Source of the DNA: Bacteroidota bacterium
GTDB lineage: Bacteria > Bacteroidota > Bacteroidia > Chitinophagales > Chitinophagaceae
Direction of reading: 5' to 3'
Assembly (NCBI GenBank): GCA_947448725.1
Contig: CANFOM010000004.1
Location: forward strand, 1-64,000
DNA: 64,000 nt
Of the stretch, positions 1 to 13,306 are shown piece after piece. The position numbers and the translations under genes are program-made. The notes below the pieces were generated by a model, which was not told the DNA's origin, ran no database searches, and saw only the letters and a list, made by a program, of their open reading frames with translations. The first letter of the stretch is position 1, and every line of letters starts with the position of its first letter.

Positions 1-2667
1 ATCTAAATCTAATCTATTCGGAATACCATCATTATCGGTATCCATATCAACCACTCCACACAATACTCTAGCCTCTCCTAAAAACATATTATACGCAGCA
101 TTAACCGTTAAGCCATCCGTACTAACTTGATTAAGACTATTGCCATTAATGTCATACCAGCCATTTAAAATATTTAATTTAACCTTAGTAGCATTTTTAA
201 ATGTTTTAGGGAAATTAAACACCTGCGCTCCAGGATTATCTCCACTTCCGTTAGGTTGCGCAGTAGAATAAACACCTGTTGTGAAAACCTGTCCATTATT
301 ATAAGTAATTTCTACCGTAAAATCTTTTGGTGGCCCATCTCCTCCACCATAATTATAAGCATCTGGCGCCCATAATACCACCCCGCCAATATTAGAACTT
401 ACGGGTAATGTATATTCAATAAAACCAGCCGTTAAAGGTTCTTTCAATAACCAAGCGTCATTTAATGTAGCAGGTGCCGTGGCTAACGCAGCCAGTCCTG
501 TTCCTGTAAAACCGGTTCCATCAATAGTACGATCTGCATTAGCACCACCATAAAAAGGACTTGAGGTTGCAGCACTTGGGGTTATAAGTACGGAGGAATT
601 ACAATTCGTCATTTCGATGGCATCTAAAATTCCATCATTATCATCATCTAAGTCGGCAAAATCAGGAACTGCATCGCCATCTGTATCAGTACAAGTAAAT
701 GTTTTTGAACTGATATTATTGGTATAACTACATTCATTGATTCCTGTGTTAGAAGTCCAAGTACTTAAATTAAATGGTCTTGCCGTTGTGCCTTTATCAT
801 TCACCACAGCAAATACATTAGAAGAAAGCGCTACTAAATTTGCAGTCATTGTTACGTTCATTGATCCTCCAGCTGCAATAGTAGCAGTTGTTTGATAAGT
901 ACCCACAATATTAGCAGCACCCGAAGTTGGATTCGCATCATAAAGTGTAACATAGGTTCCAGCTGGTAATAAAAGGGAACCTGTATTACTTATGGTTGCT
1001 GAAACAGTCATGGTAGGACAGGTTCCAACAATTGAATTGACAGTTATACTTGCATCGGGCACATTAGAGTATCCACTAGGCACACCAACACCTACTGCAT
1101 CAGATAATTGTAATTGAGCTTCGTTGTTATTATAAGCAACAGAACTAGCCGCATTAATTTCAGTAGCAGGTACAGTTAAATCAGAATTAATATTTACAAT
1201 ACGATAGTTACGTTGATTCCAATAATTGGGTGCAGCTCTCCATGGCGAAGTAGTTGGATCACTTGCAAATACTTGTAATGTATTGTTACCAGTAACTGCA
1301 ATTTCTGCTTGACCATCATTGTTTAAATCGGCCACAATAGGATATTCTCCCCAAGTGGAAGATGCAACAGCAGCAGTTGCATAGTTGACTGGTGTAGTTA
1401 AATTACCATTAATTATTCTTAAGGTAGATTGATCTCGATATACTATTTCTCTTATACCATTTCCATCAAAGTCAAAAGCCGTAATACCTGTACAACCCGA
1501 CATATCATTGGTAGCAATAGACCATATAAATTGCGTCGCAGTTCCAGATGTTGTATTATAGTTTAAATTATAAGCGGTTACTATACCAGCAGAACCACTT
1601 ACAGAATTGATTATTATAGCTTCTGGTAAATCGGTTAATTTACCACCTGTTGTTTTATCGTTGTAAACGTTCGCAATTAAAGGCAAGCCTCTGGTACCAT
1701 AGTTGAATGAGGGCGGTACCCTTTTAAATAATAAAGTATTTGCTAAAGTAGTTCCATTCGGATCCCACATTACTACAAATGTTGAACCATTGTAAACGAT
1801 ATCTAATTTGCCATCCCCATTCATATCACCCACTGCAGTTGGTCCATTGTCATTCGCTGCAATACCTGATAAAGGAACTGTACTTAAATCTTTAAGAACA
1901 GTCATGGTACCTGCCGTCAAATTAATTCCATAAACTTTTGAACCATATATTAATTCCTTACCTGAATTAGTTGAAATAATATCAGCTACAATCACATCAA
2001 TAGGTGTCCCTGTACTACCCGAAGTCTGCCCAATATAACCTAATGCAGGTCCTGCAACACGCTTCACCAATGCACCATTTACAATTCCAAAAACATCACT
2101 GCCTAAAACAATTTCTGAATTACCATCTCCATCAATATCTACTAAATATGGTGTACTTGTTGTTGTATATTGAGAAGCAGTTGTTGATTTATATAAATAA
2201 TTAGTTTCTGTACCACCTGTACTTGCAAAAATGTAAACATAGCCACTTGCATTTACTGCAATGACTTCTGGTCCAGCCGAAGTTGAAATAATATTAGCAA
2301 TAGCAGGTTGACTTGAATAGGCACTTTGTATTGAAATCTGGAAATCTAGTGTACCTGTTGTTGCATTAGAACCATCTCCCTTATAAACAAAGTACCCTGA
2401 ATTATCGCTAGCAGGTACTAGAATTTCAGAAATACCATCTCCATTTAAATCTGCAGCAGTAGGTGTTCCTCCATTCCAAATACCTGTACTAGTTTGAAAT
2501 TTTTGAACCATACCCCAGGTTGATGCAGGAGTTGGATTATAAGGAGCGACACAAGGTGTTTGTGCATTGACAATAGAATTTAATCCAATGAATATACCTA
2601 AAATACATACCCTGATAAAAGAATGAATAAAAATGTTCTTCTTTTTAGTATAGAGATGATAAAGCAT
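1..2667 (-). CDS. Large secreted FG-GAP/VCBS and thrombospondin type-3 repeat surface protein (3' end off window)
   Basis: The frame is open from ATG 2667 to the left edge (889 codons) with no stop, so the C-terminus is missing. Residues about 10-32 form a hydrophobic signal peptide ending in NAQ. From about residue 55 to 430 there are repeated FG-GAP-like calcium loops: DLNGDGISEILV, DIDGDGNSEIVL, DMNGDGKLDIVY, DFDGNGIREIVY and DLNNDGQAEIAV. These typically build a beta-propeller. A CARDB-like beta-sandwich follows, then Asp-rich thrombospondin type-3 loops (DTDGDAVPD, DLDDDNDGILD) at about 659-681, and another set at the window edge (DTDNDGIPN). Such architecture is usual for Bacteroidota proteins exported by the type IX system and carrying a C-terminal sorting domain, which would lie outside the window. 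Probable role is adhesion or surface matrix; the ligand is unknown. The upstream DNA carries a multi-site operator-like array. Confidence 0.85.
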   Translation of the reverse strand, partial: MLYHLYTKKKNIFIHSFIRVCILGIFIGLNSIVNAQTPCVAPYNPTPASTWGMVQKFQTSTGIWNGGTPTAADLNGDGISEILVPASDNSGYFVYKGDGSNATTGTLDFQISIQSAYSSQPAIANIISTSAGPEVIAVNASGYVYIFASTGGTETNYLYKSTTASQYTTTSTPYLVDIDGDGNSEIVLGSDVFGIVNGALVKRVAGPALGYIGQTSGSTGTPIDVIVADIISTNSGKELIYGSKVYGINLTAGTMTVLKDLSTVPLSGIAANDNGPTAVGDMNGDGKLDIVYNGSTFVVMWDPNGTTLANTLLFKRVPPSFNYGTRGLPLIANVYNDKTTGGKLTDLPEAIIINSVSGSAGIVTAYNLNYNTTSGTATQFIWSIATNDMSGCTGITAFDFDGNGIREIVYRDQSTLRIINGNLTTPVNYATAAVASSTWGEYPIVADLNNDGQAEIAVTGNNTLQVFASDPTTSPWRAAPNYWNQRNYRIVNINSDLTVPATEINAASSVAYNNNEAQLQLSDAVGVGVPSGYSNVPDASITVNSIVGTCPTMTVSATISNTGSLLLPAGTYVTLYDANPTSGAANIVGTYQTTATIAAGGSMNVTMTANLVALSSNVFAVVNDKGTTARPFNLSTWTSNTGINECSYTNNISSKTFTCTDTDGDAVPDFADLDDDNDGILDAIEMTNCNSSVLITPSAATSSPFYGGANADRTIDGTGFTGTGLAALATAPATLNDAWLLKEPLTAGFIEYTLPVSSNIGGVVLWAPDAYNYGGGDGPPKDFTVEITYNNGQVFTTGVYSTAQPNGSGDNPGAQVFNFPKTFKNATKVKLNILNGWYDINGNSLNQVSTDGLTVNAAYNMFLGEARVLCGVVDMDTDNDGIPNRLDLD

Positions 2668-2743
2668 TGTAAATCTATCGATTGACATTCAGATACGGAT
2701 ATTGAGTATCTGCAAAAATTATATAAAAAGATGACAGTAGTCA

Positions 2744-2898
2744 TAGAATGAATTCTACAATTTATAGAATATTTAAAAAACTTTTCAACATGAATAGATT
2801 TAAATCTATTCTATTAGAATCAATGGATTTAATTCTATTTTCTAGTATTTGTATATTCAGTAGAGATAATTCTATTAGTAAATATTAAAATAATTCTA
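2744..2898. promoter_or_regulatory. Operator-like array of TAGAAT/ATTCTA half-sites
   Basis: The hexamer TAGAAT or its complement ATTCTA occurs eight times in this 155-bp stretch: TAGAAT at 2744, 2765 and 2815; ATTCTA at 2752, 2808, 2832, 2869 and 2893. The clearest dyads are ATAGAAT-GA-ATTCTA (2743-2757) and ATAGATT-TA-AATCTAT (2794-2809, inside a perfect 20-bp palindrome at 2792-2811). Weaker copies at 2824-2837 and 2861-2874 keep the right arm and the TA spacer. The same dyad sits upstream of the LuxR-type regulator gene (6858-6875). The 7-2-7 geometry is that of NarL-type regulators. Binding is inferred; the repeats are directly visible. Confidence 0.6.
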
Positions 2899-2911
2899 AA
2901 TTGCATTAACA

Positions 2912-3157
2912 ATGATTCCCCAAGCAATGTTAAGAATAACTGAAATAGTAAAAGATGATATATTAGAAATAATATTTTCTGATAAACAACTTAATACTAA
3001 AAGCTATAGCATTTTGTGTGAAAGAGGGAATGAAATTATGAAAGGAAAAATTGCTGGTTTTACTCAGCGTACTTGTTTATATATTGGCGAATTGAAAAAA
3101 GGTATTTATCAATTTCAAATAGACGAACAAAACCCTAAAACTTTTGAAGTACTTTAG
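2912..3157 (+). CDS. Small beta-rich protein resembling a type IX secretion C-terminal domain
   Basis: An 81-residue protein without signal peptide or membrane segment. The second half (YSILCERGNEIMKGKI, then LYIGELKKGIYQFQI) has the spacing of Bacteroidota type IX sorting domains: a YxIxxxxGxxVxxG strand pair, then a short strand, LxxGxYxxxI and a final strand. No cargo precedes it, so it is either a free-standing CTD-like fold, a remnant of a longer gene, or an unrelated small beta protein. It starts 14 bp after the operator-like array, divergent from the surface-protein gene, and its end overlaps the convergent kinase gene by 4 bp. An internal ATG at codon 6 is a possible alternative start. 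I assign no function. Confidence 0.55.
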   Translation: MIPQAMLRITEIVKDDILEIIFSDKQLNTKSYSILCERGNEIMKGKIAGFTQRTCLYIGELKKGIYQFQIDEQNPKTFEVL

Positions 3158-6100
3158 TTTTCAAAGACTATACTTACCGTAGTACCCTCATTCTCTTTAC
3201 TATCAATCATTAATTTAGATTTCATTAATTTAATTATATTTCTTATAATTTGATAGCCAACCCCATTGCCCTTTTTATACTTAGGCAAATTCTCTACTTC
3301 ATCTTTACTTTTTCCCGTAATTAAATACTTTGCCATAGAAGCACTCATGCCCACACCGGTATCTTGCACTATAATTATATATCCAGATTTGCTTTCTTCT
3401 AAGGAAATATGTATATTCCCTTTCTCAGTGGATTTAATAGCGTTCATTAAAATATTATACATTAATACCCTTAGCGCCTCAGGCCAATTTTTAATTTTTG
3501 TATCAATAGGAATTTTATTTTCTAAAGCAATGTCTTTACTTCCTACAAAAGGAGTAATGAACTCTATTAAGTCAAAAATTAATTTATGAATATCTACTTC
3601 TTGACTGTTTAATAATTTATTGGTGTTATCGAATTTAACCCAATTTAACATATTCCTAGTTAAATACTCCAATTCCTTACTGGTGCTAGCTATTTGTTGA
3701 ATTGACTTTTTTAAATCAGCATCTACAATTTTTTCATTGATACTATTGGCGGTCATATGCAAATATTTAAGAGGTGTTAATACATCATGATTCATAATGG
3801 CAAGCACTTGTTCTTTGGCTTGATTTCTTGCAGTTAAATATTTATTTATGCTTGTTAAGGACTTAGTTTTCAAATTCACTTCAGATTCTAATTCTTTCTG
3901 TCTTTTATGATAGATGGCCGTTTTAATTCTAACATATAAATAAATGAGCAAAATGATAATCAAAAAATACACTAATATCATTAAAGGATGAACTGCATTA
4001 GGATAATTAACATAAAAAGGATAATCTATCGAACCAAAATCAGCACTAGCAGTATTTCTCCATCTCAAATAAAGATCATTTTGCCCAAAGGATGTTTTGT
4101 CTAAATGAATATTAGGGTTCTTAATAGTAATTCTTTTCCAGTTTTCATTTAAACCAAATTTATATTCTACAATTACGTTTTCTTCCGATAACATCCCTGA
4201 AATACCTAATTGAAAATCGATACTTTTTGTTTTACGAGAAAGCGCTTTATTAAAATCTTCAAAACTTGTAATTTTATTATCGATAATAATCTTATCTAGA
4301 TAAACATTTGGCTTTATATTGAGATAATTTAGTTTGTTCAAATTATCAGGATTAAATTGAATTAGTCCATCTATTCCTGGTATTGAAAAATCTCCATTAG
4401 GTAATTTGATAGCACAGGGGCTGCAGCCACCATTCATCTCCAAAACATCAATACCATCTATTTTTCCAAAATATCTGAAAGCTATTTTGCCTGGTCCAAA
4501 ATTCCAAAAATCTTTTAAAGATTGTTTAGGTGATCTAAAAAGACCCTTATTGGTACTAGCCCATATATTATGCTCATCATCTTCTATAAAGCAATGTACA
4601 TATTTCAAATAACCATTAGGGTCGAAGGGCATTTTTTTTATGGTATCCTGCTTATACATGTATACTCCTCCGCCATAAGTTCCTAATAAAAAATAATCAT
4701 CCATTTTATAAATACTCCTAAAATTGGCTTTTGTCTTATCCCTATAGAACAATTTGAAAGTATTTTTTTCTAAATTGTATTTATATATACCATCTGTAGT
4801 AGCTACTATTAGCTCCTTAGCATTCACCCTATTTATATCATACACAATAAAATTTAAAGGAGACCATTTAAATTTTAAAATACTCACCCATTCATTATTA
4901 CTAGTCTTCTTAATAATTCCTCTATCATTTATAGAATAGACAACACCTTCCACTTCTATAAAAGCATTCCTATTAGCGTATTCAGATTTAGTTTTTTTAA
5001 CAATCTTGCTTTTGGTCAAGTCATACTCAACAATCCCATCTGAATTGGTAAAATAGAGAATATTTTTACTTGAAGTAAAAGTAACTGTGAAAGATTTTTT
5101 ATCGAAAATTGAAGGACTGATTGTTTTGGATGAGCCAAATATTGGCCCATCATTTACTTGAATATTCCCATTTTTCAATAGTACCTGTGCATAAGCACTC
5201 GTACTAGTATTTAACAATGTATTATTGGGTAAGATTCTATTAAAGAATTTTGGCCTACAAACAATCACCCCTCTATTATCTGTAGCTAAATATATGGTTT
5301 GTGTTGCTTTATCAAATTGTAGAAATTTATAATATTCATTAAATGGTAAATTATTAATTAAAATTTCAAAATTAAAACCATTTTCATCATAATGAATTCT
5401 ATATACTTTATTACCAATAATTATGAAAGTATCATCATATGACAAGTCTTGAAAAACTTTTACTAGTTCCCCCTTTGTAAAATATTTCTCACAATGGTAC
5501 ACCTTTTTAACAGTAACTGTAGTAACATTTTTAATGGGATCATTAATTATTTTAATTTCAGATAATATATTATTTTCATCTATTACAAACAGCCTATCCC
5601 CCATTTGAAAACCTTGTGCATTTTTATCAAAGAAAAATAAAGAATCAATTTTATTTTTCTTAAATCGAATTAGATATCCCTCATTGATGGATACTATCTC
5701 ATTTTGTATTTTAAAAGTTTTAAAAAGATTACTAAGTATAATAGGACTTGACTTACTTAATTTAAATTGATATTTATCCTCTATAAATTCATTAAGTATA
5801 TTATTCTTTAACGAAGTTTTTCCTACAACAACATCATTTTGCTTTATACTAAAACTAGAAGCATCTAAAAATTTTCCAAATAAACTGCCATTCTCCGCTT
5901 TGGAAAAATAAACGACTCTATTGTTTAATATGGATTTTTCTTCTTGATCTCCAAAACTTTGAATGTTATGCCCATTGTATCGTATAATACCCGACTCTGT
6001 CGCTATCCATAAAAAACGATGCTTTTCATCAAACTGTAACCCCTTGATAGTATTTGTGGGTAATCCTGATTCCGTATTAAGCCTTTCAAACGTATAAGGC

Positions 6101-6180
6101 AATTGTGAAAAAGAGGAAGCCCCTATTAGTAGGAGCAAAAATGTAAAGAATAATTTTCTAATAACTAATTTGATGCGCAT
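3154..6180 (-). CDS. Membrane sensor histidine kinase with periplasmic beta-propeller
   Basis: 1008 residues. A signal peptide (about 1-25) is followed by a large periplasmic region with two-component-regulator propeller repeats (for example LWIATESGIIRYNG and IWASTNKGLFRS), then a YYY-like beta-sandwich, a single transmembrane helix at about 733-751, a coiled linker and a kinase core. The H-box is HDVLTPLKY with phospho-acceptor His798. The N-box Asn is about 913, G1 is DTGVGM (about 940) and G2 is GNGVGY (about 971). No receiver or AraC domain follows, so this is not a fused hybrid. The propeller probably senses a periplasmic ligand and passes phosphate to the regulator encoded just upstream, whose gene overlaps this one by 23 bp, which suggests translational coupling. 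The ligand cannot be told from sequence. Confidence 0.9.
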   Translation of the reverse strand: MRIKLVIRKLFFTFLLLLIGASSFSQLPYTFERLNTESGLPTNTIKGLQFDEKHRFLWIATESGIIRYNGHNIQSFGDQEEKSILNNRVVYFSKAENGSLFGKFLDASSFSIKQNDVVVGKTSLKNNILNEFIEDKYQFKLSKSSPIILSNLFKTFKIQNEIVSINEGYLIRFKKNKIDSLFFFDKNAQGFQMGDRLFVIDENNILSEIKIINDPIKNVTTVTVKKVYHCEKYFTKGELVKVFQDLSYDDTFIIIGNKVYRIHYDENGFNFEILINNLPFNEYYKFLQFDKATQTIYLATDNRGVIVCRPKFFNRILPNNTLLNTSTSAYAQVLLKNGNIQVNDGPIFGSSKTISPSIFDKKSFTVTFTSSKNILYFTNSDGIVEYDLTKSKIVKKTKSEYANRNAFIEVEGVVYSINDRGIIKKTSNNEWVSILKFKWSPLNFIVYDINRVNAKELIVATTDGIYKYNLEKNTFKLFYRDKTKANFRSIYKMDDYFLLGTYGGGVYMYKQDTIKKMPFDPNGYLKYVHCFIEDDEHNIWASTNKGLFRSPKQSLKDFWNFGPGKIAFRYFGKIDGIDVLEMNGGCSPCAIKLPNGDFSIPGIDGLIQFNPDNLNKLNYLNIKPNVYLDKIIIDNKITSFEDFNKALSRKTKSIDFQLGISGMLSEENVIVEYKFGLNENWKRITIKNPNIHLDKTSFGQNDLYLRWRNTASADFGSIDYPFYVNYPNAVHPLMILVYFLIIILLIYLYVRIKTAIYHKRQKELESEVNLKTKSLTSINKYLTARNQAKEQVLAIMNHDVLTPLKYLHMTANSINEKIVDADLKKSIQQIASTSKELEYLTRNMLNWVKFDNTNKLLNSQEVDIHKLIFDLIEFITPFVGSKDIALENKIPIDTKIKNWPEALRVLMYNILMNAIKSTEKGNIHISLEESKSGYIIIVQDTGVGMSASMAKYLITGKSKDEVENLPKYKKGNGVGYQIIRNIIKLMKSKLMIDSKENEGTTVSIVFEN

Positions 6181-6763
6181 GTGCCAATTGTAAAAGATGC
6201 GTAAATGATTCCGCCTTTACCTTATCAAATATAACCGATTTAATAGTAGAAATGGTGTTCATTTTAAGCCCTAAAAGGGTACTTATTTCCTTGGTTCTAT
6301 AACCATTCAACAAATAATGTAAAACTTCTAATTCCCTCACTGCTAAACTGGCAAATGGGTTTACTTCATTGTCCACCACTTTTGACATGGCTAATGGAAC
6401 CGACTTAATAAATGATTCTATATGATATTTTATTTCATTTTCTGAAACCCCCTTGTATAAATAAGAATGTATTTGGTATTTCTTTAAAATTTTACCATAC
6501 ACTTCGATAGGCTGCATGGAATGGATTAAAATAGATAATTTAGGATACAAATTATTAATATTCTCAATTATCTCCAGAGTATTTCCGTCTGGTAAAATAA
6601 TGTCAAGCACTAAATGTGAGTAAGTATCGTTTTTAAGTGCCTGCATTAATTCATTACAAGTTCCCACTTCGTCCACAACTTGCACATTAAATTGCTTGAT
6701 CAAGGAGCTTAACCCCATTCTCACAATACTGTGATCATCTGCTATTATTACTTTGATTTCCAT
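6158..6763 (-). CDS. LuxR/NarL-family response regulator
   Basis: 201 residues. The receiver domain (1-120) has the acidic pair at 9-10, phospho-acceptor Asp54 in LVLDIILPDG, Ser82 as the switch hydroxyl and Lys104. A LuxR-type helix-turn-helix occupies about 135-195 (LAVRELEVLHYLLNGYRTKE, then LGLKMNTISTIKS). It is transcribed first, and its 3' end overlaps the propeller kinase gene by 23 bp, so the two form a cognate pair in one operon. Upstream lies an ATAGAAT-TA-ATTCTAT dyad that recurs near the surface-protein gene. LuxR-type regulators of the NarL class bind such inverted heptamers, so autoregulation and control of the surface protein are reasonable inferences. Confidence 0.92.
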   Translation of the reverse strand: MEIKVIIADDHSIVRMGLSSLIKQFNVQVVDEVGTCNELMQALKNDTYSHLVLDIILPDGNTLEIIENINNLYPKLSILIHSMQPIEVYGKILKKYQIHSYLYKGVSENEIKYHIESFIKSVPLAMSKVVDNEVNPFASLAVRELEVLHYLLNGYRTKEISTLLGLKMNTISTIKSVIFDKVKAESFTHLLQLAHAHQISY

Positions 6764-6857
6764 GGGGATATTAACTAATTGAAATAGTAACTTCTTTTGT
6801 TTAAAATTCTTGCTAAAATTAAGGAACTTATAGCTTATTATCCTTTATTCTAGACCT

Positions 6858-6875
6858 AATAGAATTAATTCTATT
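6858..6875. promoter_or_regulatory. Perfect 18-bp palindrome upstream of response regulator
   Basis: AATAGAATTAATTCTATT is a perfect palindrome about 95 bp upstream of the regulator ATG, just after the stop of the thioredoxin-like gene. Its core TAGAAT-TA-ATTCTA matches the best dyads of the array at 2744-2898. It is a candidate autoregulatory operator. Confidence 0.55.
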
Positions 6876-6883
6876 TACTATGT

Positions 6884-8266
6884 TTATTTTATATAATTAG
6901 CCAAAATCATATTTCTAACCGTTTGCGGACTAACTTTCTTCCCCATTAAAATGCCTTTATTATCGATGAGGTAAAAAATTGGATTGGTAAAAGCATCATA
7001 ACTTTTACGCAAAGGTAAGTTGGCGCCTAAATTAACATGCACATAGTTGGTCGAAAGTTTGTAAGTTTTGATAAAATCTTGCCAAACTGGTAAGGGCATA
7101 TTAGGTTCATTACAAACCGCATACCTGCCTATTTTTATATTGTACTTTGCAAGTAGAAAATTTAGCACACTGTCCATTTTAGGAACTTCCACTTTGCAAT
7201 GTTCACAAGTGGGATCATAAAACATTATTACGGTAAAATTATTTTGTTTGGCAAACTCATGTAAATTTTGATCCTTGTTTCCCGTATCTTTTAAAATCAT
7301 ATTCACACAGGTGTCCTGTAAATTTAATAAACTTAAATTGGCTATCTCTTCTTTATAAGTAGTTAATTGTTTTGCATCCAATACCTTGCACTTTTCATTC
7401 AATAAATAGGTCTCCACAAATTTCTTATAGCCTTCTGTATTATTAACAATTTCTCTATTCTTTAATAGTTTCGTTAAATAATCCACCACATACTTACCCA
7501 TATTACTTTTACAATCCAACCCACTCATGAGTGAGTCTACCCCTTTACTTATAGAATCTGCGTTTAAGGGATAGTAAGAAAAATATTCTGTCAGCACCAT
7601 TCTAATATTAGGCGTAAACAAAAGCTTTGGCGAATTAAAATTGAAATTATTTAAAAAATTATGCCTGGCTTCGATATTTTTTCTACTAGGTACCGACTCA
7701 TCTAATAAGTTCAATGTATTAAAATGCAAATAAAGTGCATCGGTTAGTTTTAGATTAGCTAAGTGTTCTGTTCTAAAATAATCCAGTTGATTGGTTTTTA
7801 ATTGAAAAAAAGCTGCTTTTTGAGCGAGGTTGAATTTTTTGCCTTTGGCAATTTCCGCAGCATAAGCAGTATCATAAGAGGACAATTTCCGCTCTAACTG
7901 CTGGTATTCAATAAATTTTTGATTGTTGGTATTGCTAAACTTTATAAAGTCCAAATATTTAGCGCCACTTATTTCTACCTTTAAACTGTCTTTATTTTCT
8001 AAGGTAAAATAGATCTTATCCTTTGTTTTAGGAAAATAGAAATAATAGATACCCCCTACAATTGATTTTTTTGAATTAATCGTATAGGCACCTTTGGATA
8101 AATTAATAGTATCTTTTGGTAAAAAGTTTTTTTCATCAAAAACAGTAGCTCTAAAATAAATTACCGTATCATGTGTATTAATGGCTTTTATCTTAATTTG
8201 ATATTGCGCATTAGTAGCCTGCGAAGCAGCTATGATTAAAAATATAATTAAAAATATTCTTTTCAT
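6884..8266 (-). CDS. Exported TlpA-like thioredoxin-fold protein
   Basis: 460 residues from ATG 8266. A TTG two codons upstream would also be in frame but is less likely. A signal peptide ends near NAQ (about residue 21). The N-terminal beta domain (about 22-105) resembles the DUF4369 module often fused to such proteins. The central part is helical, and the last 130 residues are a thioredoxin fold with active site TCEHCK (Cys354 and Cys357 from this start). In Bacteroidota these proteins act as periplasmic thiol-disulfide reductases; the substrate is unknown. The gene begins 9 bp after the O-antigen ligase-like gene and appears to be the last of a leftward run starting at mutS2. Confidence 0.85.
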   Translation of the reverse strand: MKRIFLIIFLIIAASQATNAQYQIKIKAINTHDTVIYFRATVFDEKNFLPKDTINLSKGAYTINSKKSIVGGIYYFYFPKTKDKIYFTLENKDSLKVEISGAKYLDFIKFSNTNNQKFIEYQQLERKLSSYDTAYAAEIAKGKKFNLAQKAAFFQLKTNQLDYFRTEHLANLKLTDALYLHFNTLNLLDESVPSRKNIEARHNFLNNFNFNSPKLLFTPNIRMVLTEYFSYYPLNADSISKGVDSLMSGLDCKSNMGKYVVDYLTKLLKNREIVNNTEGYKKFVETYLLNEKCKVLDAKQLTTYKEEIANLSLLNLQDTCVNMILKDTGNKDQNLHEFAKQNNFTVIMFYDPTCEHCKVEVPKMDSVLNFLLAKYNIKIGRYAVCNEPNMPLPVWQDFIKTYKLSTNYVHVNLGANLPLRKSYDAFTNPIFYLIDNKGILMGKKVSPQTVRNMILANYIK

Positions 8267-8275
8267 TATCAATCT

Positions 8276-10633
8276 TTATTTACAATACATCGCAATATAC
8301 TTATCTATATCTGGATAATTCTTTTTCTTAGCTGCTTGTAATGGCGTACAAGCGATATTGTTTTTCCCCATGGCTACTAAAGCCATGGCTTTAAAAAACT
8401 CCGACTTGCCTGTACTATTTTGTGCAAATTCAATAGACTTGTCAAAATAACCAATACTCTTTTCGTAATTTTTATTGGAATAATAACAAACTGCAATGTT
8501 TTCAAAATGAGTATAGTTATTAGGTTCTGCCACACTCGCTTTGATGTATAATTTTGCTGCACCAATATAATCTCCCTTTGTAAATAATTTACCTGCATCA
8601 GCTGCATACACATTAACAAGACTAGTATTTTGACTATTATTGGCATTGTTTGCCACCCCTCTATACAATAAATTTTTAGCGCCTCTTAAAATTACCGAAT
8701 CTGCAGGAAAATGAATGATGGCCGAATCTAAAATGTTTAACATGTATTTATCTGCCCCACCTTTTACTTCATACATGGCCATTAAATACTGATTCACGGC
8801 TTCCCCGCCATCTCGATACTTTTTATATAAATTATAAGCTTTGGTAATTTCCAGGGTGTCTCTCTTTTTGGCAGCTCCAAACAATACATTTTTGTAATAG
8901 CTAGTAGCTCTTGGCCAATTGTAAAAAGCGCGCTTTGAATAAAAAGAAACACTATCAAAATTTTGTTGCGCAGCAAAGATGGCTGTTTTTATAAAATCAT
9001 TATAATGCAACGCAGGATTCACCGATTCACTTTCTCTTAATAACCTCAGGGACTCCTCATATTGTTTATCCCTAAAATAATACCTCGCCACTAAAGCCTT
9101 AATAGGCAATGTGGAAGTAGATAAATTAGGGAACATAGGGAAAGCAGTTTTAACATCCTCTAAGGGCATTTTAGGATCACTATCAATTTCCCCCATCACA
9201 AATTTTTGTACTTTCAAGGATTCGTACACTTGATTGTTGATGAAAATACTTGGCAGCAAAGTTAAAAGGCTAATGAGTATAAAAAACGCACCAGCTATTT
9301 TAACACTAAACAATTTAAATTTAGGAACCGCCAACCAATGTTCATTCATTATATACCCTGGCGCCATCACCAAAGCAAATACAATCGCTAATATGGTTTG
9401 CATAATGGTTCGCTCCGTTGGGAAGTTAAAAAACGCATCAATAAAATAACAAGCCAATGCCATAGCCGATATAGTTGCTATTAAATGATATTGTTTGGCA
9501 TTTTTATTTTGCCAAATACGGATTGTAAGTATTCCTAATAAAATAAATAATAACGCATAACAAATAAATCCCAACACTCCTAAATCGGCTCCATTTTCAA
9601 TAAAATCATTGTGTGAATGATAGGGTACAAATAAATCGTTGGTAAATTCTTTTTCATAAGGGATTGAAGCCAGTTTCCAATTACCATACCCATCCCCTAA
9701 AATGGGATGCTTTTTAAAATAATCTAAAGCAGCCCTCCATAAATGAATCCTTGACCCTTCTTCACTCGCAACAGTAATATCTCCAATTCTTTTGGTTACA
9801 GAACCATATCCTCCTTGATTTTCTTGCATTTTTACGGCATTATCTAATACCATATTAGCAGAAAAAAATGCAAGGGCTACCGGTACAATAAAAAGAAGTA
9901 TTTGCAGTATTGCTTTCTTTCTGTTCTTATATAAAAAGAATATTGTACTTATAGCAAAAAATAACAAAATTAATAAGAGTGCTACATAAGTTGACCTAGT
10001 ATTCATAATAAAGACAGCAAAAACACCTAAGAACAAGGTAATAAACCCAATAATGCGTTGTAAGACCTTACCAGAAACTAATAAGTACAATGCAAAAGGA
10101 ACTTTAATAAGTAAGCTGGCTGCCATTACGTTCTTATTCCCATTATTGCCAGTTAAACTTACAATATTAGCATCCAAACCCAAGGTATCTAAATTATTAT
10201 TGAACCCTTTAATCACATACAAAGCATCATAGATCAATATAAAGCTCATCATCAAACACAAATAAGTATAAAAAGAAGTCAACTCTTTTTTATAGAGTAA
10301 AACAGAAATATTTATAAACAATAAAAATGTACTAGTTAACCTCGATAAACATACCATGGCTTCATTGGCATTCATGGCATAGGAAATGGAAATAATGGCC
10401 CAAATAAAATAGACTAAATAAATGAGTGTAAACCTGCTATTAAATACGACACCAATGGCTTCTTGGTATTTAGTGCTGTTAAAAAATATATATCCAAAAA
10501 CCAATAAATTCACCAAGCTCGTATACAACCACTGCGCGCCCATTACATCGGCGCCCCCTAAATCGGGAATAAAATGAACCATCAAATAAAGTGCAGTGAA
10601 AAATAAAAGTATATAATCAGGTCCCTTTTTCAT
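8276..10633 (-). CDS. O-antigen ligase-family membrane protein with C-terminal TPR repeats
   Basis: 785 residues. About 12 hydrophobic segments fill residues 1-460. The Wzy_C/O-antigen-ligase signature lies in the large periplasmic loop: RIHLWRAALDYFKKHPILGDG, then YHSHNDFIENGADLGVLGF. The C-terminal 300 residues are tetratricopeptide-like helices (for example KLYIKASVAEPN and YEKSIGYFDKSIEFAQ). The family polymerises or ligates undecaprenyl-linked glycans, or glycosylates proteins in the inner membrane. TPR-fused forms are common in Bacteroidota. Whether this one is a polymerase or a ligase cannot be decided from sequence, and no other polysaccharide genes are adjacent. Confidence 0.85.
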   Translation of the reverse strand: MKKGPDYILLFFTALYLMVHFIPDLGGADVMGAQWLYTSLVNLLVFGYIFFNSTKYQEAIGVVFNSRFTLIYLVYFIWAIISISYAMNANEAMVCLSRLTSTFLLFINISVLLYKKELTSFYTYLCLMMSFILIYDALYVIKGFNNNLDTLGLDANIVSLTGNNGNKNVMAASLLIKVPFALYLLVSGKVLQRIIGFITLFLGVFAVFIMNTRSTYVALLLILLFFAISTIFFLYKNRKKAILQILLFIVPVALAFFSANMVLDNAVKMQENQGGYGSVTKRIGDITVASEEGSRIHLWRAALDYFKKHPILGDGYGNWKLASIPYEKEFTNDLFVPYHSHNDFIENGADLGVLGFICYALLFILLGILTIRIWQNKNAKQYHLIATISAMALACYFIDAFFNFPTERTIMQTILAIVFALVMAPGYIMNEHWLAVPKFKLFSVKIAGAFFILISLLTLLPSIFINNQVYESLKVQKFVMGEIDSDPKMPLEDVKTAFPMFPNLSTSTLPIKALVARYYFRDKQYEESLRLLRESESVNPALHYNDFIKTAIFAAQQNFDSVSFYSKRAFYNWPRATSYYKNVLFGAAKKRDTLEITKAYNLYKKYRDGGEAVNQYLMAMYEVKGGADKYMLNILDSAIIHFPADSVILRGAKNLLYRGVANNANNSQNTSLVNVYAADAGKLFTKGDYIGAAKLYIKASVAEPNNYTHFENIAVCYYSNKNYEKSIGYFDKSIEFAQNSTGKSEFFKAMALVAMGKNNIACTPLQAAKKKNYPDIDKYIAMYCK

Positions 10634-10660
10634 ATTATAAATCTACTATATTTAATTCAT

Positions 10661-11116
10661 TTATAATACCCTAACCTTCATGACCACTTTCTTAATGGCG
10701 CCTTCCCCAATCATGGGTGCATGCACATCTGTAGGAAAATAAATGCTAAACATACCAGCCTGTAATTCAAAAAACATTGTGGGTGCATCGGCATAAAACA
10801 AAACTTCTTTTTCTTCACTATATTCCCCTTTGGGTTGAGTACAATTGGTTCTTGCTCTCCACCCAACATTCTCCTTCCCTTGCAATACAATTTGAATATC
10901 AATATAAGTATTGTGGCATTCGAAACCTTCTAATGATTCTTTAGCAGTAACACAATGGCCTTCCATTACAATGGCTTTGATATTTTCACCATCCACTAAA
11001 ACAGTCCCTGGCTCCAAACTTATTAAATTGGTGGTTATGATATAATCCATTGCCTTTTCAAAACGAGGATGCAAGTGTGCATATTTAGTGAGTTCGCTTA
11101 ATTTATCTATAACCAT
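10661..11116 (-). CDS. YhcH/YjgK/YiaL (DUF386) family protein
   Basis: 151 residues, the full usual length. It has the family pattern: an N-terminal helix, a cupin-like beta barrel with CHNTYIDIQ (about 88-96) and the C-terminal FPTDVHAPMIGEG metal-site segment followed by KKVVMKVRV. Relatives (YhcH, EbgC) are linked to processing of sialic acid or other exogenous sugars, but the reaction is not firmly known for most members. It lies 15 bp after mutS2 and 27 bp before the ligase-like gene in a leftward run, a context that does not point to a particular sugar. Confidence 0.88.
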   Translation of the reverse strand: MVIDKLSELTKYAHLHPRFEKAMDYIITTNLISLEPGTVLVDGENIKAIVMEGHCVTAKESLEGFECHNTYIDIQIVLQGKENVGWRARTNCTQPKGEYSEEKEVLFYADAPTMFFELQAGMFSIYFPTDVHAPMIGEGAIKKVVMKVRVL

Positions 11117-11131
11117 TTTGTGTATTTTAAA

Positions 11132-13243
11132 TTATTTCTTTGTGGGCTCTTCAATTTTTTCCACGACCATTAAATCTTCCACATCAATATTCATAGGTAA
11201 TTGGCCCACTTTTACAATGGCTCTTTTCCCTTTAAACCCAATCACTTCCCCCACTTGATAATTCTTTTTCAATTTCACCATCGATCCTAATACAATGGGT
11301 ACTGCCAATTCTTTATAATTTTTATCTACTTTTTTAGCCAATTTATTAATCACAATCTTGTCATTGGTCTTAAATAATAAATTGTATAAATTCTTCATCA
11401 CTTCTTCCTTCTTGTCCGATTTTTTCCAATCTAAAGCAATTTGCTTTATTTTTCTTTCCATGTCCTTTAAGTAGGCAAACTTTTCTTCGGCTACCCTATT
11501 CTGCTCTTTTAACAATTCAATTTGCTGCACATGCTTCTCTTTGTCTAAAGTTTTTTTAAGTTCGGACTGAAGTACTTCGTTCTCTTTTTGTTTTTTATGC
11601 AAATCTCGTCGCTCCTGTTGCACTAATTGCAAATCCTGCTCGGTTCTATTTAATAGTTTATCTAATTCAAAATGATGGCTGTCCACCAACTTTCTGGCAC
11701 GATTGATTAAATTTTTTGGCAACCCAATTCTTTCGGCAATCGCAAATGTATAAGAACTACCAGGCTTGCCTATGACCAATTGATACAAGGGTTCTAGTTT
11801 TACTTCATCAAATTGCATGGCGCCATTGATGATGCCTTTATTGTGATTGGCCATTACTTTTAAATTCAAATAATGCGTGGTCACAATGCCTTGCGCATGC
11901 CGATGCGATAATTCTTCCAATATTACTTCGGCAAAAGCGCCTCCTAAATGCGGATCACTTCCACTTCCCAACTCATCAATAAAAAACAAAGTTTTCCCAT
12001 TGGCATTTTCTATAAAATGCTTCATATGTAACAAGTGACTCGAATAAGTACTTAATTCAAAGGCTAAATTTTGCGTATCGCCCAATTGAATAAACAATTG
12101 CTTGTAAATACCCATTTGCGAAGTAGCACTCATTGGAACCAATAAACCACTTTGCAACATCACTTGGTTCAAACCCAAGGTTTTCATCGAAACCGTTTTA
12201 CCACCTGCATTGGGTCCACTTATAATTAATATCCTGGCTTCATCATCCAATTCTAAATTAACAGGTATGGTTTTTTTTCCCGAGGTCTTATTATAGATAT
12301 ATAAAAGTGGATGATACGCATCAATCAAATGCGTGGTGGCTTTATTATGTACCATGGGTCTGTTCCCATTCATATCTATAGCGAGTAATGCCTTTGCTCT
12401 GATAAAATCAAAATTACCCACTATTTGCGCATAACTTAAAAGCAAAGCAGAATAAGGCGCCAACTGTGCGGTCAATGCTCTTAGAATTTTTTGTACTTCT
12501 TTTAACTCATCCTGCTCTAAGCCATACAATTCATTATTCAATTCAATAGTTTCCTCTGGTTCAATAAATGCCGTTTTACGACTATCACTTTCTCCATGTA
12601 AAAATCCTTTCACCTGTCTTTTGTATTCCGAAAAAACAGCTACTACTCTTCGTCCATTGCTAAAACTTTCATCAATGTCGGCAGTATATCCCGACTTAGC
12701 CAAACGGTGCACCACTTTTTCAAAAATGCGTCTTAGCTCCTGTCTCTTCTTAAATAATTGGTGTCTTATTTTTGCTAAATCCTCAGAAGCATTGTCTTTT
12801 ACATTACCGCGATCATCAATAATTAAATCAATGCATTCAACAATGGCTTTTTCGTAATAGGACTCTTTCACCACTTCATATAAATTGGAATAAGCCATTT
12901 GTCTTTCGGCATCAAACCATTTAAACACTTGGTGAAGATGATCCGACAAGCGTCTCACCAATAACCATTGCTCACCGGTTAACTGCGCACCGGGTATGCC
13001 CAATAATTTTAAATCCTTTCTAATATCTAACACAAAATCATTGGGAAAATATTGATTGGCTAATTTAATGTACTTGTACTCCTCTGTTTGTCTAAGTGCT
13101 TCCTCTATATATTTTTGATGAGTATGAATGCGCATCTCATTCACTTGCTCCACCCCCATATTGGTTTGGCAATAGTTTAATAAAATTGCTGTGATTTTAT
13201 CAAATTCTAATTGAGTAAGGGCATTTTCGGGATATACGCGCAT
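11132..13243 (-). CDS. mutS2: MutS2-family ATPase lacking the Smr nuclease domain
   Basis: 703 residues from ATG 13243. An in-frame GTG at 13261 would add six residues, but MutS2 proteins normally begin near the ALTQLEFDKI segment, so the ATG is preferred. The core/lever domain is followed by a MutS ATPase with Walker A GPNAGGKT (about 345) and Walker B FFIDELGSGSDP (about 424). A long coiled coil (about 510-610) and a KOW-like beta segment (GEVIGFKGKRAIVKVG) come next, and the protein then stops. Canonical MutS2 is about 780-800 residues with a C-terminal Smr endonuclease, which is absent here with no sign of a frameshift. MutS2 acts on branched DNA or collided ribosomes. First gene of a four-gene leftward run. 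Confidence 0.9.
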   Translation of the reverse strand: MRVYPENALTQLEFDKITAILLNYCQTNMGVEQVNEMRIHTHQKYIEEALRQTEEYKYIKLANQYFPNDFVLDIRKDLKLLGIPGAQLTGEQWLLVRRLSDHLHQVFKWFDAERQMAYSNLYEVVKESYYEKAIVECIDLIIDDRGNVKDNASEDLAKIRHQLFKKRQELRRIFEKVVHRLAKSGYTADIDESFSNGRRVVAVFSEYKRQVKGFLHGESDSRKTAFIEPEETIELNNELYGLEQDELKEVQKILRALTAQLAPYSALLLSYAQIVGNFDFIRAKALLAIDMNGNRPMVHNKATTHLIDAYHPLLYIYNKTSGKKTIPVNLELDDEARILIISGPNAGGKTVSMKTLGLNQVMLQSGLLVPMSATSQMGIYKQLFIQLGDTQNLAFELSTYSSHLLHMKHFIENANGKTLFFIDELGSGSDPHLGGAFAEVILEELSHRHAQGIVTTHYLNLKVMANHNKGIINGAMQFDEVKLEPLYQLVIGKPGSSYTFAIAERIGLPKNLINRARKLVDSHHFELDKLLNRTEQDLQLVQQERRDLHKKQKENEVLQSELKKTLDKEKHVQQIELLKEQNRVAEEKFAYLKDMERKIKQIALDWKKSDKKEEVMKNLYNLLFKTNDKIVINKLAKKVDKNYKELAVPIVLGSMVKLKKNYQVGEVIGFKGKRAIVKVGQLPMNIDVEDLMVVEKIEEPTKK

Positions 13244-13306
13244 AGGGTCTAAATAGAGCACGAATTTACTTAAATAAACATTAACTAAATGAGAACAAAT
13301 GGAAGC

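Follow-up and report, generated by a model that had tools for sequence, protein, structure and literature searches.

Comparison of the window, by which we mean the whole stretch of DNA analysed (64,000 nucleotides), with related genomes suggests that the cluster of TAGAAT/ATTCTA words at 2744-2898 very probably serves as operator region for a two-component system of the NarL/FixJ type encoded next to it, which likely activates the gene of a giant, SprB-like type IX secretion system (T9SS) type B adhesin. The repeated unit is a 16-bp palindrome, NTAGAATTAATTCTAN, which in this freshwater bacterium and its relatives stands at a fixed distance ahead of the giant surface-protein gene and ahead of the neighbouring regulator gene and is most likely the site through which the response regulator (RR) controls the surface protein. 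The site, its targets, its fixed spacing and its link to the regulator all emerge from comparative sequence, and together they form what we regard as a well-supported operator set, marked by a new motif, by a T9SS adhesin as its dedicated target and by an unusually rigid promoter geometry.

The array separates a surface-protein gene, of which the window holds the 5' part, from a small divergent gene, and the kinase and RR genes that follow overlap one another and share the orientation of the surface-protein gene (Table 1). The traits that we call SprB-like, namely a type B sorting domain and an SprF-family neighbour, were scored in relatives; the window gene ends before its C-terminus. By its coordinates, the counterpart gene in genome G009 encodes 8431 aa with a T9SS type B sorting domain, and the TIGR04131 model (cut-off 35) gives 36.8 bits in the G009 counterpart and 39.9 bits in that of G155. 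The genes after the adhesin in G009 and G115 are PorP/SprF-family and OmpA/PorE-like, with T9SS_PorP_fam scores of 261.8 bits (G009) and 263 (G115).

Table 1. Features of the locus and of related short reading frames, with coordinates in the window unless a locus is named.
Feature	Position	Strand	Details
Surface-protein gene, 5' part	1..2688	-	FG-GAP repeats; truncated by contig start
Presumed -7 box, surface-protein promoter	2713..2721	-	TA-N3-TTTG; TTTG end 30 nt past proximal operator
Proximal operator, surface-protein promoter	2743..2758		7-2-7 palindrome ATAGAATGAATTCTAC; exact core TAGAATNNATTCTA
Lone half-site	2764..2770		ATAGAAT
Second operator	2794..2809		ATAGATTTAAATCTAT; 51 bp from proximal operator
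Third operator	2823..2838		ATGGATTTAATTCTAT; 2 mismatches
Operator proximal for divergent small gene	2860..2875		GTAGAGATAATTCTAT; 29 nt to end of small gene's -7-like box
Lone half-site	2893..2898		ATTCTA; overlaps -7-like box of small gene
Presumed -7-like box, small-gene promoter	2897..2904	+	TAAATTGC
Small gene, 81 aa	2912..3157	+	single DUF3244/T9SS-CTD-like beta-sandwich domain
Sensor histidine kinase gene, 1008 aa	3154..6180	-	with Reg_prop repeat
LuxR/NarL-type RR gene, 201 aa	6158..6763	-	presumed operator-binding protein
Presumed -7 box, RR promoter	6814..6821	-	TAATTTTA; end 45 nt past operator
Lone half-site, RR promoter	6847..6852		ATTCTA
Operator of RR-kinase operon	6859..6874		ATAGAATTAATTCTAT; perfect; core kept in 28/28 RR promoters
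Tlp462, 462 aa	6884..8272	-	thioredoxin/AhpC-like; both Pfam matches below cut-off
Solo LuxR-type HTH proteins, 73-75 aa	L065:2986-3213; L066:5296-5517		window's genome

Both domains expected of such a regulator exceed their cut-offs in the RR (Response_reg, PF00072, 1e-14; GerE, PF00196, 6.1e-11), and its relatives in the PDB are VraR, EvgA, DesR and RcsB. Residues D10, D54, S82 and K104 are invariant across 12 aligned relatives, and we take these to include the phospho-acceptor Asp and the conserved Lys of the receiver. In the kinase, HATPase_c and Reg_prop match above the Pfam cut-offs and HisKA below. Within positions 1-13261 the adhesin, kinase, regulator and thioredoxin-like genes adjoin a MutS-like and DUF386 neighbourhood, and in genomes G001, G081 and G082 (loci L154, L156 and L157) this neighbourhood (MutS-like and DUF386-like, both by eye) is found with the small gene and without the block; the block of adhesin, kinase, RR and Tlp462 therefore looks as though it has been gained or lost as a unit.

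The preliminary description had counted eight copies of TAGAAT/ATTCTA in 155 bp, and an exact count confirms it (word starts 2744, 2752, 2765, 2808, 2815, 2832, 2869 and 2893). The full 64 kb holds 57 such words, and the next-largest cluster beyond the array comprises three, at 6847-6873. In 200 dinucleotide-preserving shuffles of the window the densest 155-bp cluster was four words, reached once, and in 5000 shuffles of the 223-bp intergenic region the largest cluster was five. Both dyads named previously, at the proximal and second operators, are present, and two more with the same 7-2-7 arrangement accompany them. The proposal that the dyads are spaced by a few helical turns holds loosely at best, as their starts lie 51, 29 and 37 bp apart, which at 10.5 bp is 4.9, 2.8 and 3.5 turns and hence not whole turns; the 51-bp spacing between the proximal and second operators is found again in several relatives.

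We sought RR orthologs in 147 genomes of the genus Sediminibacterium and found 31 genomes with an RR of at least 60% identity, partial ones included. Each of the 28 usable RR promoters, which come from 27 genomes, two copies being in G138, contains the core TAGAATNNATTCTA with no more than one mismatch; G159, G143 and G060 are counted instead under the promoter of a leading Tlp462, and G077, whose contig ends inside Tlp462, was dropped. In the three genomes where Tlp462 directly precedes the RR, the core lies in the Tlp462 promoter, once with at most one mismatch and in all three with at most two. The core is likewise found with at most one mismatch in 16/16 promoters of the gene after the kinase. 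That gene was picked by position: 11 of the 16, the window's own included, have a BLAST match to the window surface protein, and those of G015, G148, G115, G158 and G138b have none. This set excludes G002, where the gene is Tlp462, and G013, G061 and G149, which have another order or no such gene. Promoters were scanned over 200 nt, extended to as much as 520 nt for G155 and G138b, whose ORF calls start late.

The 7-2-7 geometry suggested earlier is borne out by these promoters. A spacing of two between half-sites occurs in 79 of 91 promoters, a total that includes nine Tlp462 promoters found largely through the motif (70/82 without them), counts some divergent regions from both sides and draws on related genomes; spacings of 0, 1, 3, 4, 5, 6 and 8 occur in 0-3 promoters each, and a spacing of 7 in 13. 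Fifty-nine permuted palindromes reached at most 5/91 promoters, with a mean of 0.36. Over 57 sites, positions 2, 4, 5 and 12-15 of the operator are invariant, and the outermost base is weakly conserved (position 1: A 25, C 13, G 13, T 6). In the RR promoters the site columns, taken at the chosen best match, are 93% conserved, versus 48-57% in the adjoining columns, and the flanks have a median ungapped identity of 37%; the site is thus not explained by ancestry alone. The preliminary description had also linked the array to the LuxR/NarL-type regulator and had named the surface-protein and CTD-like promoters as its targets, and both proposals gain support.

The proximal operator keeps a nearly constant distance from the presumed promoter. 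Among 19 regions after the kinase, a set that adds G045 (lacking a called surface-protein ORF in the 700 nt next to the kinase) and G070 (interrupted by a contig end), the end of a TTTG lies 29-30 nt past the proximal site in 18, and the single miss is G002, at 34 nt, where the region precedes Tlp462 instead. In G148, G159 and G143 the proximal site has two core mismatches, and a better match lies farther upstream. The -7 box consensus is TAnnTTTG and spans -12 to -5 in F. psychrophilum according to the passages available from PMC9723704; the surface-protein box in the window deviates from this consensus by one spacer position (TA-N3-TTTG). Assuming the box position of F. psychrophilum, the proximal site would cover approximately -50 to -35, with its centre near -42.5. 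Class II activator sites are centred near -41.5. A scan for sigma-70-type promoters returned one site versus 4.6 expected; its consensus does not cover that of Bacteroidota. Further elements lie around the proximal operator: an inverted repeat, CAGATAC...GTATCTG (2689-2711), separates the presumed -7 box from the surface-protein start, and many relatives carry a different dyad, of the type GGGA..TTTTGTACG..TCCC, around the -7 box and start, either of which is possibly a 5'-UTR hairpin. An element reading TGTT.A.AA (2782-2790), between the second and proximal operators, is conserved in 18 aligned surface-protein promoter regions, an alignment set chosen for its TTTG spacing.

The best copy of the palindrome, a perfect one outside the span of the preliminary description, lies upstream of the RR. 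The distance from operator to box at RR promoters is 44-46 nt in 26/28 cases with a relaxed box, and of the 16 RR promoters with a strict TAnnTTTG box, 13 have it at 45 nt. This places the site at about -57.5, half a turn out of register with -42.5.

These distances also bear on the sign of regulation. The RR may bind the array and repress the surface-protein and small-gene promoters, with release upon a change of signal, a reading that we consider unlikely. Repressors commonly have multiple operators across divergent regions, as found here, and the half-turn shift of the RR-promoter site could reflect regulation of opposite sign at the two promoters. Repression is disfavoured by the placement of the proximal site, which precedes the -7 box, ends near -35 without covering the box or the start, and is fixed there in 18/19 regions, a rigidity that fits an activator contacting polymerase. 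NarL offers a precedent for repression at frdA, aided by a 7-2-7 site, but that site lies at -4/+6, whereas E. coli NarL activates napF and yeaR from 7-2-7 sites at -40 to -49 and -38 to -47 (both in the sections available from PMC4549865).

The small gene provides a separate test of the operator. Because it often shares its intergenic region with a divergent neighbour (RR, Tlp462 or surface protein), to which a strong site there may belong, we counted only sites with at most three mismatches that are followed, at 29-31 nt, by the end of a relaxed -7 box on the small gene's own side. Such a site is present in 15 of 24 small-gene promoters, including all four (4/4) that face an unrelated divergent gene of about 700 aa, versus 43/4800 shuffled promoters and 0/6 promoters in genomes without the RR. 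A plain match to the core is found at one mismatch or fewer in 14/24 and at two or fewer in 19/24, compared with 0/6 and 1/6 without the RR, and sites of only two to three mismatches are all that 10/24 promoters have. The set without the RR comprises six genomes, 58-98% complete, and excludes a seventh, G063, with a weak small-gene match. Across the 147 genomes the small gene co-occurs with the RR in 26 of its 33 genomes (Fisher p ~1e-17, uncorrected for relatedness).

The small protein is matched in 33/147 genus genomes and has a conserved stretch of the QRTCLYVGDL type. By eye, no signal peptide is seen. Its predicted structure is all-beta, with seven strands and a mean pLDDT of 77.5, and its top fold match is a DUF3244 structure (E 4.5e-3). 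The window protein, at 15.5 bits, does not reach the Por_Secre_tail cut-off of 27; at E up to 1, 7/15 members of the family match Por_Secre_tail (best 8.8e-4), and 7/15 match DUF3244 (best 1.4e-6). Searching PDB sequences with a profile of the small protein returned nothing.

Tlp462 is a regulon member in some relatives, and in the window it is without an operator of its own. It co-occurs with the RR in 26/30 genomes (147 genomes; Fisher p ~7e-20, uncorrected for relatedness). The scan covered 27 of 31 Tlp462 places, the G077 row having matched the kinase. In RR genomes 22 places were scanned: 14 carry a site of no more than two mismatches, located 55-61 nt before the start codon in 11 of them, and eight have none; most of these eight lie closely behind another gene, G153, an apparent head of its own operon, being an exception. 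In genomes without a close RR the site is found at 0/4 Tlp462 genes, of which only G005 and G061 are a fair test, because those of G057 and G020 closely follow another gene.

The arrangement extends beyond the genus. We found 51 distant loci, of which 21 were mapped and 11 have a full start of the large gene; the ten mapped loci left out are contig-end cuts, repeats of G013 or G061, L223 (no RR ORF) and L186 (a close relative). These distant RR relatives, 46-51% identical and from other Chitinophagales including Ferruginibacter, lie one or two genes after a large gene. The 16-mer GTAGAATTAATTCTAC or a close form, with the core within one mismatch, precedes the large gene in 11/11 of the loci with its start, although at L230 the site was apparent in the promoter scans only and not at mapping. 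A T9SS type B sorting domain is present in all four proteins tested, from three distant loci. A TTG or TTAG occurs at an offset of 28-31 in 10/11 of these promoters, the word being short and the evidence accordingly weak. No site was found beside the RR in G013 (RR 47% identical) or G061 (RR 52%). In G061 a site does precede, on another contig, the start of a secreted protein that resembles the G009 adhesin and is cut by the contig end, and in G013 one precedes a gene about 3 kb downstream. The concern raised previously, that orthologous regions might lack the motif, is thus contradicted for RR orthologs above 55% identity, which keep the site with at most one core mismatch in 28/28 promoters, and stands for the RR-adjacent regions of G013 and G061.

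Raw frequency shows no enrichment of the motif across the window's genome: the 12-letter core occurs 19 times with at most one mismatch, versus 24 times for a reversed control. The preliminary description had held that equal frequency elsewhere would count against it, and raw frequency indeed lends no support, while position does. A wide regulon is not borne out either, as among the 16 of these 19 matches that were viewed (those on C18, C19 and C23 fall outside), only the ones at this locus precede a recognised surface or T9SS gene. Ten of the 16 lie inside ORFs and six are intergenic: two in this locus, one before a presumably FtsZ-like gene and three on C4 and C11. Across the genus the difference is modest, the 16-mer with at most one mismatch occurring 97 times versus 36 for the control in 31 genomes with the RR and 65 versus 37 in 45 without. 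Twenty motif loci were viewed in other genomes, six lying just before Tlp462 and one (G061) before the adhesin-like start; the remaining 13 recurrent loci, before other genes or inside ORFs, were set aside. A near-consensus site also lies between two genes, which we take to resemble ftsA and ftsZ, in two relatives (L248:1999-2014, G000 C11; L236:2063-2078, G132).

A DNA-binding protein other than the RR could in principle be the ligand of the array, for instance one of the solo LuxR-type HTH proteins, two of which (short GerE proteins on C9 and C36) occur in the window's genome and are 45-46% identical to the DNA-binding part of the RR. We regard this as quite improbable, because the sites track the RR in both the RR promoters (28/28) and the small-gene promoters without it (0/6), and because similar short frames occur in G012 and G020, both without an RR match at E 1e-22, with the partial Tlp462 of G020 siteless, though it lies behind another gene. 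Very improbable, too, is an RNA-level element in which the palindromes form transcript hairpins: folding of the minus-strand RNA is somewhat better than that of shuffled sequences (z -2.19), but arms only 2 nt apart are poorly suited to an RNA hairpin, no terminator-like site was found in 2600-3000, and the position of the sites upstream of the presumed promoters and their -7 boxes led us to set this reading aside. That an AT-rich word clusters here by chance, or that the sites reflect shared ancestry and no function, has a negligible probability, as despite a very AT-rich region and the absence of genome-wide enrichment, the shuffles and the permuted palindromes reject the former and the contrast between site columns and flanks speaks against the latter.

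Taking the array as an operator region of the adjacent two-component system, we infer the following mechanism. The kinase would sense an envelope or surface signal and phosphorylate the RR, which would then dimerise on NTAGAATTAATTCTAN. At the proximal operator the RR would adjoin RNA polymerase in the manner of a class II activator, so that binding most likely activates, rather than represses, transcription of the adhesin gene. From the operator nearest the small gene, at a nearly equal distance from the divergent promoter, the RR would likewise activate the CTD-like gene. The array thus seems to act on a promoter at either end, with the inner sites common to both, where they may cooperate. 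The perfect site at about -57.5 of the RR's own promoter would provide autoregulation, whether positive or negative. A more elaborate scheme, to which we give rather little credence, is a closed secretion-coupled circuit in which the kinase would monitor, at the cell surface, how the T9SS or its giant cargo is faring, the RR would switch both the cargo and the lone CTD-like protein through a single divergent class II array, and the leaderless protein, as an intracellular CTD mimic, would exert feedback on export or on the kinase.

For Bacteroidota, these results single out a concrete, testable operator and regulator of a giant SprB-like T9SS adhesin, together with a target list, a motif and a promoter spacing. 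The conserved, apparently leaderless T9SS-CTD-like protein tied to the RR may provide a handle on how the production of very large secreted proteins is coordinated. Among the open papers searched, none contains the 16-mer or combines Chitinophagaceae, response regulator, binding site and type IX secretion; one, PMC9258536, combines Sediminibacterium, type IX secretion and response regulator, the last two mentioned once each.

Several known systems share parts of this arrangement. Giant gliding adhesins of the SprB-SprF type are known from Flavobacterium johnsoniae, and the order seen in G009, a giant T9SS type B cargo gene followed by a PorP/SprF-family gene, resembles theirs; in the titles and abstract openings of the literature on sprB and gliding regulators or promoters in F. 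johnsoniae, a comparable operator is not named. PorX, a T9SS-linked regulator, is reportedly no direct regulator of T9SS genes (title of PMC5005315), whereas here a cargo gene bears the sites. The PorX/PorA system does resemble the present one in being a two-component system tied to the T9SS with a CTD-type protein in the circuit (as the accessible part of PMC7712824 describes it), and PorA has a signal sequence and an N-terminal domain, unlike the single-domain small protein, in which no signal peptide is seen. A further likeness is to E. coli NarX-NarL, which shares the Response_reg and GerE class, inverted half-sites two bases apart over 16 bp and sites near -40 at activated promoters; the half-site here is TAGAAT, in contrast to the TACCCCT heptamer of the engineered narG site (PMC4549865, in the sections available). 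The present system further differs from NarL in its weakly conserved outermost base, in its Reg_prop sensor kinase and in its likely target, which is a T9SS adhesin rather than respiration.
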